Source: Aurantiacibacter sediminis
GTDB taxonomy: Bacteria; Pseudomonadota; Alphaproteobacteria; Sphingomonadales; Sphingomonadaceae
Direction of reading: 5' to 3'
DNA length: 64,000 bases
Assembly (NCBI RefSeq): GCF_016019885.1
Contig: NZ_JAEANY010000001.1
Location: 434,001-498,000 of the forward strand
Under the pieces are notes generated by a model. That model was not told where the DNA came from. It saw nothing but the letters and a program-made list of their open reading frames with translations, and did not search any database. Position 1 is the first letter of the stretch. Each line of letters opens with the position of its first letter. A program made the position numbers and the translations under genes. Positions 18,988 through 46,341 of this stretch are shown here, in pieces.

Positions 18988-19656
18988 ATGAAAATTTCTC
19001 TGAAGCGGGCTGGGGCCATCGCCCTCGCCTCAACTGTGTTTGCGAGCAGTTTCGGTACCGCAGTGAGCGGCGCCATCGCACAGGACCAGACGGACCCGGT
19101 AGTGGCCGAGCTGGCACAGACAGAATTTGAAGTGCCGCAGAACGCTGCCGAACCCACCGCTGATGAACAGGTCCGGTTCGTTGCCAGCGAAGTGGTGCAG
19201 GACGTTCCGGAAACGCCGGAAGTCGAAGAAACCGATGCCAGCTCGCTGCGTGAGCTGGTCCACACCGTCGACACCTCAGGTGAGCTCTCGCGTGAAATGA
19301 TGTGCCTGGCGCAGGCCGTGTATTTTGAATCGCGTGGTGAACCGCTCGATGGCCAGCTGGCCGTCGCCCGCGTGATCATCAATCGCGCAGAGAGCGACAC
19401 TTTCCCCGATGACTATTGCTCGGTGGTAACCCAGCGCTCGCAGTTTTCGTTCGTACGCGGCGGCCGCATCCCGGCGCCGAACCGCGGCACGACCGCTTGG
19501 AACCGCGCCAAGGCGATCGCCCGCATCGCTCATCGCGATCTGTGGGAAAGCCCTGCTGACGACGCGCTTTATTTCCATGCGACTTACGTTCGCCCTAGCT
19601 GGGCACGCCGCATGACGACCCGCGCGCGGATCAATAATCACATTTTTTATAGGTAG
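18988..19656 (+). CDS. Cell wall hydrolase, SleB/Hydrolase_2 family
   Basis: A 222-residue exported protein: signal peptide (ISLKRAGAIALASTVFASSF...), an acidic linker to about residue 90, then a SleB-like catalytic domain. That domain contains MCLAQAVYFESRGEPLDGQL with the catalytic Glu, VARVIINRAES, and QRSQFSF, and ends in ARINNHIFYR. The family cleaves peptidoglycan. The ATG at 18988 is used; a TTG at 18985 in frame is less likely. Repeat copy A begins 13 nt after the stop. Confidence 0.88.
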   Translation: MKISLKRAGAIALASTVFASSFGTAVSGAIAQDQTDPVVAELAQTEFEVPQNAAEPTADEQVRFVASEVVQDVPETPEVEETDASSLRELVHTVDTSGELSREMMCLAQAVYFESRGEPLDGQLAVARVIINRAESDTFPDDYCSVVTQRSQFSFVRGGRIPAPNRGTTAWNRAKAIARIAHRDLWESPADDALYFHATYVRPSWARRMTTRARINNHIFYR

Positions 19657-19669
19657 TTGTTTGTCTCAT

Positions 19670-19915
19670 GCGGCCACATCCGTGGCCGCGTCCTCGGCGC
19701 TATTCGCTCCAGCGGGACTGCGTTCCGCCTGCGCGGCACCTGCGGGTCGCGCTGTGCGCTCGGTCGCTGACCTGCGGCCAGCGAGACTAGCGCTTCAATT
19801 GATCACAGACGCGGAGCACGCTCGGCGATCTGCCGAAGGCAAGGCCGAATGGCCGCCCGCAGCGGGCGCAGCTTGCCTGCGCGTCTAGCGAGGACGATCG
19901 CCCGGATGGGCGATC
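19670..19915 (+). repeat. Hairpin-bounded dispersed repeat, copy A
   Basis: This 246-bp element fills the gap between the convergent hydrolase and xth genes. The left end hairpin is GCGGCCAC-ATCC-GTGGCCGC (19670-19689). The right end hairpin is GATCGCCC-GGAT-GGGCGATC (19896-19915). Just inside them lie inverted GTCCTCG and CGAGGAC. The core matches copies at 35731 and 46091 and carries further small hairpins, for example GCGCAG-CTTGC-CTGCGC near the right end. The middle part differs most from the other copies. Confidence 0.9.
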
Positions 19916-19925
19916 ACGAAACAAA

Positions 19926-20711
19926 TCAATCCCTAATCTCAACCCAAACAGGGGTGTGATCGCTCGCCTTTTCGCGTCCGCGGTATTCGCGGTCGACGCC
20001 TGCGGAAACGAGGCGATCAGCCGTTTGCGGTGAGAGCAGAAGGTGATCGATGCGGAAACCATGGTCGCGCTGCCACGCGCCGGCCTGATAATCCCAATAG
20101 GTCCATACACCGCCGCGCGGATTGAGCAGGCCGAGCGCGTCTGTCCAGCCATCGTTGAGAATGCGCGTGTAGGCTTCGCGGGACTCCGGCTGCATCAGCG
20201 CATCGCCAGCCATAGCCTTGACCGACCAAACGTCATTGTCGCGCGGGATCACGTTGAAATCGCCGACCACCACGGTGGGCTGCTCACTGGCGAGAAGCTC
20301 CTGCAACCGCTCCCGCAGCGCCGCCATCCACTCGAGCTTGTAATCGAACTTCGGCCCGGGCTGAGGATTACCGTTCGGAAGGTAAAGATTGACGATCCGC
20401 ACGCCGTTTACATCGGCTTCGATATAGCGCGACTGCTCGCCTTCACCCTCTTTGGGCCCGTCGACTCCAAGGCCGCGCCGCACCTCCTCTGGCGCAGTGC
20501 CATCGCTAAGGATCGCGACGCCGTTGAAGCTCTTCTGCCCGTGCCAGATCGCCTTGTAGCCCATCTCTTCGAATTCATCAGCCGGGAAGCCTTCATCCTG
20601 CGTCTTGATTTCCTGCAGGCAGGCGACTGTCGGCCGGGTTTCCTCCAGCCATTCTTTGAGCCGCGGCAGGCGCGCTTTGATACCGTTGATGTTAAATGAG
20701 GCAATCCGCAT
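19926..20711 (-). CDS. xth: Exodeoxyribonuclease III
   Basis: A 261-residue Xth/AP endonuclease of base-excision repair. Motifs: MRIASFNINGIKARL (metal ligand Asn), CLQEIKTQDEGFP (catalytic Glu), VNLYLPNGNP, VVVGDFNVIPRDNDVW, FRIDHLLLS and KASDHTPVWVE with the catalytic His. The ATG at 20711 starts the family N-terminus; the frame is open further upstream inside erpA. It lies 10 nt downstream of erpA on the same strand. Confidence 0.95.
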   Translation of the reverse strand: MRIASFNINGIKARLPRLKEWLEETRPTVACLQEIKTQDEGFPADEFEEMGYKAIWHGQKSFNGVAILSDGTAPEEVRRGLGVDGPKEGEGEQSRYIEADVNGVRIVNLYLPNGNPQPGPKFDYKLEWMAALRERLQELLASEQPTVVVGDFNVIPRDNDVWSVKAMAGDALMQPESREAYTRILNDGWTDALGLLNPRGGVWTYWDYQAGAWQRDHGFRIDHLLLSPQTADRLVSAGVDREYRGREKASDHTPVWVEIRD

Positions 20712-35730: not shown

Positions 35731-35981
35731 GCCCGCCCATCCGGGCGGGCGTCCTCGGTGCTATTCGCTCCGGCGGGACTTCGTTCCGCCTGCGCGGCAC
35801 CTGCGGGCTTCGCGTTCGCTCGCTGTCGCTGACCTACGGTCAGCGATCCCTGCACTCCGGTCGAAGGGTGTCGCGGAGCACGCTCGGCGACCAGCCGAGG
35901 GCAAAGCCGACTGGCCGCCCGCAGCGGGCGCGTAGCGGAGCGAAGCGCGTCTAGCGAGGACGAAAGCGCGGATGCGCTTTC
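35731..35981 (+). repeat. Hairpin-bounded dispersed repeat, copy B
   Basis: This 251-bp element has left hairpin GCCCGCCC-ATCC-GGGCGGGC (35731-35750) and right hairpin GAAAGCGC-GGAT-GCGCTTTC (35962-35981). It carries the same inner GTCCTCG/CGAGGAC inverted ends as copies A and C. Internal hairpins include GGCGGGAC-TTC-GTTCCGCC, TCGCTGACC-TAC-GGTCAGCGA and CTCGGC-GACCA-GCCGAG. Of the 365-nt gap between thiSG and the next gene, only about 110 nt at the right lie outside it. Confidence 0.9.
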
Positions 35982-36090
35982 GCAAAACAAAGATTGCGCG
36001 GTCCGATTGGCTGACCAGTCCTTTCACTCACCTCACACCAAAAATTAACCATACTGCGCGATTGTCAGGCTTCAACATGGGGAGCCTGTC

Positions 36091-45218: not shown

Positions 45219-46085
45219 ATGGCGCGCCCCTTTTCGCTCACCTATTACGATCCGCCGGAGAGTTTGAAACGGCACATAACCGTGCTGTTCCATTTCGCTA
45301 CCGAAGCCGATCTTACCGAGGATTCGGTTTCGGGAGCGCTCGCGCAATTCAATATTTTTCCGCGCGGCACGGGAGAGATTTGTTTCGATGCGGGCACGCA
45401 GCCTGTCACCGCCAAGGCCAATTTACATGCCGGGATGACGAAGGCCGCGAGTTTCCGCATGCGAGGCCCGTGGCATGCAATCGGCGCGAGTCTCACGCCG
45501 CTCGGCTGGGCGGCACTGACCGGGCAGGCGGCCAGCGACCACATCGATCGCTATTTCCCTGCGGCGGAACTCCTGGGCGAGGAGGCATTTGCTTTTGGCG
45601 AGGAGGTGAGCGCGCAATATATTTTGGGCCAATTGGAGCCTGAGGCTGCGTGTGATGCCGTCGGCGATTGGCTGGCCGCCCGCCTGGGATCTGTGTCGCC
45701 GCAGCATGAAAAGCTGATCGAACAGACAATCTCATGGCTTGGTAGCGCGCTTAATCCCGATATCGAGGATTTGTTTCCAACCCTCAATTACTCGCGCCGT
45801 CAGGCCGAGCGGCTTGTGGAGCGGTTTTTCGGTCTTCCGCCAGCGGCTGTTGCCCGAAAATTTCGCGCCATTCGTTCGGCTGCGATCCTGGCAAAAGAGG
45901 GCCTGTCCGATGCCGAGGCGGCGGCTGTCGCGGAAGCCTTCTACGATCAGCCGCATATGGTGCGCGAAATCCGCCGCTATTGCGGCCACACGCCGACGCG
46001 GCTCGGCGGAGCAGGGCAGCCGATCTTGAAAACCCTGCTGCAGATGAAGAATTTCGACCGATTGCAGAAATTTCGGGCTCTCTAA
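45219..46085 (+). CDS. AraC-type helix-turn-helix transcriptional regulator
   Basis: A 288-residue protein. The N-terminal domain (ITVLFHFATEADL ... RGPWHAIGASLTPLGWAAL) resembles the DUF6597-type sensor domain of AraC regulators. The C-terminal part contains two helix-turn-helices: LNYSRRQAERLVERFFGLPP and VAEAFYDQPHMVREIRRYCG, then HTPTRL. It could regulate the neighbouring DUF885 gene, which ends 64 nt upstream. Repeat copy C begins 5 nt after the stop. Confidence 0.85.
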   Translation: MARPFSLTYYDPPESLKRHITVLFHFATEADLTEDSVSGALAQFNIFPRGTGEICFDAGTQPVTAKANLHAGMTKAASFRMRGPWHAIGASLTPLGWAALTGQAASDHIDRYFPAAELLGEEAFAFGEEVSAQYILGQLEPEAACDAVGDWLAARLGSVSPQHEKLIEQTISWLGSALNPDIEDLFPTLNYSRRQAERLVERFFGLPPAAVARKFRAIRSAAILAKEGLSDAEAAAVAEAFYDQPHMVREIRRYCGHTPTRLGGAGQPILKTLLQMKNFDRLQKFRAL

Positions 46086-46090
46086 ACCAC

Positions 46091-46341
46091 AAAGGCGCAT
46101 CCGCGCCTTTGTCCTCGCTAGACGCGCTCCGCTTCGCTGCGCGCCCGCTGCGGGCGGCCGTTCGGCCTTGCCCTCGGCTGGTCGCCGAGCGAACTCCGTA
46201 AGACCGATCGAAGGGATCGCAATGATCGCCAGCCGTAGGCAGGCGACAGCGAGCAACCGCGAAGCCCGCAGGTGCCGCGCAGGCGGAACGAAGTCCCGCC
46301 GGAGCGAATAGCACCGAGGACGCGCGCCCGGATGGGCGTGC
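46091..46341 (-). repeat. Hairpin-bounded dispersed repeat, copy C (inverted)
   Basis: This 251-bp element is in reverse orientation to copies A and B. Its hairpins read AAAGGCGC-ATCC-GCGCCTTT (46091-46110) and GCGCGCCC-GGAT-GGGCGTGC (46322-46341, one G-T pair). The inner inverted ends GTCCTCG/CGAGGAC and most of the core match copy B. The middle third differs but keeps its hairpins. It takes up most of the 370-nt gap before the SUF operon; the remaining 114 nt hold the SUF promoter region. Confidence 0.9.

Follow-up and report, generated by a model that had tools for sequence, protein, structure and literature searches.

Anatomy of the repeat

The window, by which we mean the whole stretch of 64,000 nucleotides that was analysed, carries three copies of a dispersed element, at 19670-19915, 35731-35981 and, in inverted orientation, 46091-46341. 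As a sequence-only reading of this DNA had proposed, each copy has 8-bp hairpins on the outside of a core that begins with GTCCTCG and ends with CGAGGAC. The features are as follows.

19660-19669, + strand: copy 1, left outer flank, T-rich, TTTGTCTCAT, 3 nt past a TAG stop codon ending at 19656
19670-19689, + strand: copy 1, left hairpin, GCGGCCAC-ATCC-GTGGCCGC
19690-19895, + strand: copy 1, core, GTCCTCG...CGAGGAC, with internal hairpins
19896-19915, + strand: copy 1, right hairpin, GATCGCCC-GGAT-GGGCGATC
19916-19925, + strand: copy 1, right outer flank, ACGAAACAAA (inverted, TTTGTTTCGT), abutting the end of a convergent gene at 19926
35731-35750, + strand: copy 2, left hairpin, GCCCGCCC-ATCC-GGGCGGGC, 5 nt after the stop codon of a gene that we take to be thiG-like
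35751-35961, + strand: copy 2, core, GTCCTCG...CGAGGAC
35962-35981, + strand: copy 2, right hairpin, GAAAGCGC-GGAT-GCGCTTTC
35982-35991, + strand: copy 2, right outer flank, GCAAAACAAA
46322-46341, - strand: copy 3 (inverted in the window), left hairpin, GCACGCCC-ATCC-GGGCGCGC, with one G-T/A-C pair
46111-46321, - strand: copy 3, core, GTCCTCG...CGAGGAC
46091-46110, - strand: copy 3, right hairpin, AAAGGCGC-GGAT-GCGCCTTT, 5 nt from a gene ending at 46085

All three copies have ATCC as the left loop and GGAT as the right, in agreement with the earlier reading; since the ends are inverted repeats of each other, these are a single feature. The six stems are self-complementary, as had also been noted, five of them perfectly, and the sixth (46322-46341, GCACGCCC/GGGCGCGC) has one mismatch that reads as G-T on the GGAT strand and as A-C on the other. 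Beyond each hairpin lies a T-rich outer flank, approximately TTTGTTTYRY, that the sequence-only reading did not mention and that brings copy 1 to about 266 bp. From the outside inwards, an end thus consists of ~TTTGTTTYRY, an 8-bp stem, ATCC, the returning stem and GTCCTCG.

On what we take to be the active strand, the repeat unit is 5'-CGAGGAC-stem-GGAT (or GGAG)-stem'-RYRAAACAAA-3', with a stem of 8 bp. The unit hairpin is found alone and in tandem as well as in paired ends, which had been missed, and most conspicuously two units stand in opposite orientation, tail-to-tail, so that their tags face a core of about 210 nt between them. The sequence GTCCTCG alone is too unspecific to mark the family. 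Some copies show another, second type of end, seen by eye, which has a GCCTNAGG...CCTGAGGC-like stem around a short variable stem, mostly with a GGAT loop (L013-L015 in the window's own genome; L212, L283, L286 and L287). It stands in for one simple 8-bp end in some copies and, again by eye, is present in other genera also.

In the RNAalifold consensus of 49 copies both end hairpins form, GTCCTCG pairs with CGAGGAC in a closing stem that hardly varies, and the core is branched. Both partners are changed in some sequence at 22 of the 52 pairs, 14 of them in the end hairpins and 8 elsewhere; for 23 close copies the corresponding figures are 21 of 73 pairs, 14 and 7. An inner hairpin likewise varies around a kept loop (CTCGGCGACCAGCCGAG, GTCCGCGACCAGCGGAC; by eye), and copy 2 of the window folds better than all of 200 shuffled sequences (z -6.7 as DNA, -5.6 as RNA). 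In some cores a CCCCGGACTTGATCCGGGG-like palindrome, which can face either way, replaces one inner hairpin (right half in L090 and L123, left half in L108 and L117); it is reminiscent of REPs that are widespread in Alphaproteobacteria.

Copy number and distribution

The window's own genome (G000, 2.67 Mb) has 24 places that match the core by BLAST, 15 of them near full length, and 41 matches to a covariance model of the hairpin end, a copy number that is low for a REP. A short palindrome, multiple intergenic copies and inverted pairs are all present, as in REPs and REPINs. The core is found in 36 of 37 Aurantiacibacter genomes, the window's own included and G017 being the exception, compared with none of 24 other genomes of the order. 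In a family sample of 249 genomes from 96 genera, a scan for the right end with tag and loop imposed and stems free found it in 17 genomes and 11 genera (control, 0 matches). A scan for the left end returned 53 stretches, whose titles are Aurantiacibacter, Erythrobacter sp., uncultured Sphingomonadaceae or Alphaproteobacteria MAG. In the other genera the right part, of about 45 nt, recurs with different partners, sometimes the second type of end (by eye). We conclude that the repeat family is real and old. Carriage by plasmids or phages was considered and rejected, copy 2 having no match in either the plasmid or the phage collection.

Variation of the stems

That the stems vary while the loop holds was claimed from the three window copies, and it extends across many species. 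Thirty ends from the window's own genome have 95.7% paired cells and double changes in 73 cells, values that none of 500 shuffles reached; 8 of the 10 pairs show double changes, and the covariation score was also out of reach of all 500 shuffles. The number of further pair types, 16, is in no excess over the shuffled mean of 15.5. When the partner is slid by 1-3 columns, pairing in these ends falls to 31-50%.

A pattern that leaves the stem free gave 245 matches in 40 genomes of the genus, against 10 for the reversed control. Among those listed, 136 of 150 left or solo matches have at most two non-Watson-Crick pairs and 98 have perfect stems, comprising 45 different sequences; the first stem base is G in 96 of these 98. 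At the right end, 57 of 59 matches have at most two non-Watson-Crick pairs (control, 0), and left, solo and right matches together include 142 perfect hairpins, with 57 different stems. The overall pairing of 91.7% compares with 57.0% when the inner arms are re-dealt (207 of 209 matches).

Two ways in which such stems might arise find no support here. Left and right stems are identical in 2 of 49 copies, both from single-copy genomes, against a shuffled mean of 4.0, so that templating of one stem by the other within a copy is not seen. Copying of the host flank, with the outer arm as target DNA and the inner arm as its copy, is ruled out by the conserved TTTGTTTYRY beyond the outer arm.

The mismatches that do occur are unevenly divided between the strands. 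In distinct imperfect stems, 24 mismatched pairs read as G-T on the GGAT strand and as A-C on its complement, and 10 the other way round (p=0.024), with 21 against 8 at left or solo ends and 5 against 2 at right ends (p 0.45). A second, partly overlapping set gives 22 against 9 (p=0.029), divided as 10 against 7 at the left (p 0.63) and 11 against 2 at the right. The bias is modest and the two sets locate it at different ends; it is no more than suggestive. If real, each unit would act on the strand that reads 5'-CGAGGAC-stem-GGAT-stem', which puts the tag 5' of the hairpin, where REPs have theirs.

Location at the 3' ends of genes

In the window's own genome and a close relative, G002, the 3' end of a gene lies 5-59 bp from 23 of 28 copies. 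Both neighbours were called for 17 copies, of which 9 lie between convergent, 7 between co-directional and 1 between divergent genes; the other 11 could not be classed by the gene calling, a simple composition model that missed window copy 3 although a gene ends 5 nt away. At the site of copy 1 (site 1, window 19657-19925), the genes that flank the element converge; in its place, G002 and G015 (L210, L213) have a terminator-like hairpin followed by a T-run (by eye). The same site in G003 (L227) holds a single hairpin with an outer flank on either side, the two flanks facing opposite ways, as though the core had been lost by deletion between its palindromic ends, and other relatives have partial, solo or inverted copies there (both by eye).

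Is the element, then, a structured RNA of the 3' untranslated region, acting in the mRNA as a stabiliser, a Rho-related site or a processing site where other species have ordinary terminators? On this explanation the covariation of the stems reflects a need for the RNA to fold, and an RNA-binding protein may attach to the loop. It accords with the position downstream of stop codons, with the rarity of copies between divergent genes (1 of the 17), with the hairpin and T-run that G002 and G015 carry at site 1 in place of the element (by eye), with the double changes at inner pairs (8 of 22 and 7 of 21 lie outside the end hairpins) and with the RNA fold of copy 2 (z -5.6). The inverted ends, however, would give any transcript one AUCC and one GGAU hairpin, and the modest excess of G-T follows the GGAT strand of the unit, not one strand of the element. 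The core also goes either way round at the same site, the hairpins of the window copies have no trailing T-run, and Rfam gives no match above the gathering score in the window and six further loci, the best being a weak match to copy 2 of 21.8 bits against a cut-off of 45. We consider a 3'-UTR RNA possible, though unlikely. Two narrower candidates are rejected: a known RNA family, with nothing above the Rfam threshold, and an intrinsic terminator, since no T-run follows the window hairpins, though two relatives have terminator-like hairpins at site 1.

Changes at shared sites

The sequence-only reading had suggested a search for empty sites in close relatives, and such sites exist. Behind thiG (site 2), the element is missing in 10 of 20 relatives, and in G014 the place is taken by unrelated DNA (by eye). 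Comparison of the flanks of 53 copies gave 27 same-orientation pair rows, excluding two 36-39 bp matches of tandem units, and 15 inverted pair rows, two of which rest on one flank only. Grouped by hand, the shared-site pairs form 14 site groups, and in 6 of these the core is inverted in some member.

Replacement of the whole stem is common at shared sites. Both stems differ between L008 and L096, whose cores are identical at 180 of 199 positions, while only the right stem differs between L106 and L108. In L002 and L086 the core is flipped, the junctions agree to within about 10 bp and a rare AAAG stem stays with its flank; behind thiG, similarly, a GTGAGCGC-like stem stays on the gene side in G002, G023 and G030 despite differing core direction. 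These stems, in staying with the flank, favour flipping inside the hairpins. Flips of a single base pair, with both arms changed, are also found at sites shared by G000 and G002 (AAAGGCGC/AAAGCCGC; GAAGCGGC/GAAGCCGC). Hairpin cassettes are here caught changing at sites that stay occupied.

Orthologous cores in G000 and G002 are slightly closer than other copies (mean 0.888 compared with 0.837), with a rank of 1-3 in 7 of 8 pairs and of 9 out of 13 in the remaining one. Since they are barely closer, exchange between copies or re-occupation of a favoured site also occurs. Several inverted pairs leave 20-80 unaligned bases at a junction, and for most inverted pairs the core identities make re-occupation a possible alternative to inversion in place.

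Occupied and empty sites among relatives, together with inverted termini and dispersed intergenic copies, are what would be expected of a MITE moved as double-stranded DNA by the DDE-type transposase of some insertion sequence reading the terminal inverted repeats. Against this, the two stem arms, which make up about half of the terminal repeat, are free and seldom agree even within a copy (same stem at both ends in 2 of 49). Hairpins that stand alone or in tandem are common too, and at two sites there is no obvious target duplication (by eye). A MITE of this kind seems very improbable.

The loop and its near-uniformity within genomes

When the loop is not imposed, ATCC (60) and CTCC (39) account for 99 of the 106 ends of 53 full copies. 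The same two loops occur in 229 of 265 units of tag plus palindrome in 297 loci, defined by a tag with at most one mismatch and at least 6 of 8 Watson-Crick pairs; five control tags yield 24-42 units each, so that about 30 of the 265 may be due to chance.

The choice between the two is close to a property of the genome. In the 17 genomes with at least four ends, the first loop base is that of the genome's own majority in 146 of 160 ends, compared with 101.4 on shuffling and unreached in 2000 shuffles, the patterns fixing TCC and, at right ends, A or C as the first base. In four of the 17 (G010, G015, G018 and G298) the loops are mixed and no base exceeds 75%; G031 stands at 3 of 4. The whole outer arm agrees with the genome majority in 45 of 160 ends (shuffled, 34.3) and stem position 5 in 114 of 160 (shuffled, 99.3), both beyond all 2000 shuffles, implying that the stems are not wholly independent of the genome. 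Even so, each of the 17 genomes retains between 3 and 13 different outer arms, and seven perfect stems are seen with both loops.

A single-locus tree (about 1.5 kb; 28 genomes, 27 of them labelled) requires six changes of loop type, and at least four of these are forced by well-supported branches. As few changes are needed by 8-9 of 500 shuffled labellings, so the loop label partly follows kinship. Either the preference of a recogniser has switched repeatedly or the loop has been homogenised among copies, and homogenisation must account for the 3-13 outer arms that remain per genome. The two main loops differ between sister species, and a comparison of ATCC with CTCC species makes the question of what reads the loop testable.

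Homogenisation is central to an explanation that needs no recogniser, in which template switching in the palindromes copies arm onto arm, copies exchange with one another and gene conversion keeps the loop uniform. Inversion is expected between close inverted repeats, and the base-pair flips in both arms at sites shared by G000 and G002, the whole-stem swaps, the shared-site cores that are hardly closer than other copies and the somewhat genome-specific outer arms all fit. A process that fixes the loop should, however, also level the adjoining stem bases, yet 3-13 outer arms persist per genome; moreover, units with tag and loop recur in 11 genera (both imposed by the pattern; control 0). On balance we think it unlikely that a recogniser can be dispensed with.

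Comparison with known repeats

Among the suggestions of the sequence-only reading (miniature mobile element, REP-like site or structured RNA), the REP-like one fits best. Judged by sequence, the repeat is REP-like, of the REP/BIME kind, and by the features tested is a member of neither the GTAG nor the CGTC family. It resembles REPIN and BIME composites in having inverted pairs that act as one unit, with solo and tandem relatives, and differs from them in the length and structure of the core, in tag orientation and in that no RAYT was found here. Fungal mitochondrial double-hairpin elements are paired, dispersed hairpins that show compensatory stem changes; the likeness, drawn by description and not by sequence, is to elements that are organellar and have no known tag. 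At integron attC sites a tyrosine recombinase recombines at a folded strand, and the hints of such a process here are confined to the modest strand bias and the inverted cores.

The closest functional parallel is with group 3 REPs. In the part of PMC8266576 available to us, the S. maltophilia REP is described as a perfect 8-bp palindrome with a 3-nt loop; loop positions are essential in the S. maltophilia and Marinomonas REPs, a stem mismatch impairs cleavage, and exchange of the entire Marinomonas stem was only moderately disruptive, though the fourth position mattered. According to the same part, group 3 TnpA-REP uses loop positions and the tag in a folded single strand, with a perfect stem whose sequence is partly free. 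Our repeat shares with these REPs a perfect short stem (8 bp in S. maltophilia), a short loop (with essential positions in theirs), a tetranucleotide tag 5' of the hairpin and partial freedom of the stem, theirs being strand-specific, single-stranded substrates; it differs in the tag (GGAC, not GTAG), in having no TnpA-REP-type gene that we could find and in the inward tags around a structured core of about 210 nt. Neither GTAG nor a close variant stands 5' of the hairpin, where the GGAT strand has CGAGGAC. By analogy, the repeat may work like a group 3 REP. The earlier statement that no repeat family of this kind had been described does not stand, since group 3 REPs, as far as that part of PMC8266576 describes them, work much alike; a conserved loop on a perfect, partly free stem is a principle already known from them and is not new. 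What sets the present repeat apart is its own tag, its arrangement, its core and that no TnpA-REP was found; the surprises are that loops have switched while stems stayed free, that whole stems have been replaced at fixed sites and that cores lie inverted.

A REP catalogue of 2013 (PMC3733652) includes, in the part accessible to us, alternative complementary stems, unlike partners and a tag on one side of the hairpin, and describes CGTC REPs as typical of Alphaproteobacteria and without a dedicated transposase. Like CGTC REPs as described there, our repeat is mostly alphaproteobacterial, has no known dedicated transposase and lies near gene 3' ends; its partners often differ in stem, and its 8-bp stem and 4-nt loop fall within their 8-9 bp and 4-5 nt. 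It has no A-T in the first two stem pairs, in contrast to theirs, and instead of a CCA tail it has RYRAAACAAA; CGTC REPs are mostly head-to-head, with most dimers 20-100 bp apart, whereas ours are tail-to-tail around a long conserved core. Compared by description in the same part, the unpaired CGTC-type tag is CGTC, TGTC or CCTC, and the GGAT strand here has GGAC. On the other strand the last stem C and GTCC spell CGTC, but that C is paired and the motif is 3' of the hairpin. The catalogue, to the extent of that part, left CGTC REPs without a dedicated transposase, and the related kind described here is a natural experiment, with dozens of stems, two main loops and shared sites that differ in stem or core direction. 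In the main texts of the open-access papers searched we found no prior description of this repeat family; RepRanger (PMC12306157), in the part available, has 3,055 generic REP predictions for Erythrobacter cryptus and describes no family.

A putative recogniser

What, then, reads the loop? The window's own genome encodes no protein with PF01797 (Y1/HUH, TnpA-REP type), which removes a host gene of that type as the mover, and a Y1/HUH gene occurs in only 3 of 40 genomes of the genus, with no unit in the 3.3-kb loci around those three. A RAYT-type gene co-occurring with the repeat, which the sequence-only reading had suggested looking for, is thus not seen. Of the observations named there as telling against a protein or process that recognises the loop, solo ends do exist, but no set with conserved stems and variable loops was found, and no Rfam match. 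The nearly genome-wide setting of the loop is as that idea expects; the recogniser itself is putative.

The explanation that we favour, and think probably correct, is a family of REP-type hairpin repeats in which loop and tag are read by a trans-acting protein. Such a protein would bind folded single strands and read the tag and loop, requiring of the stem only that it be duplex, in parallel with TnpA-REP acting on group 3 REPs. Paired drift of the stems, and their exchange from copy to copy, would hence be permitted. Recombination between the inverted, hairpin-tipped halves, or template switching between them during replication, could account for the inverted cores and swapped hairpins. A more ambitious combination, to which we give little credence as a whole, is that the GGAT/GGAG loop, in a folded single strand, is read by a protein of some type other than TnpA-REP, whose loop preference has switched at least four times within the genus, with nearly all copies in the genome following while the stems stayed free, and that the same ends serve as recombination sites for core flips and hairpin exchange.

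No autonomous element was seen in the window's own genome, where paired ends among the 41 model matches span about 237-343 bp. The sole wider pair read is in G015 (L278, 1-1201), where two unit ends about 660 bp apart surround an ordinary-looking gene of 114 amino acids, presumably for a protein resembling a ribosome hibernation factor.
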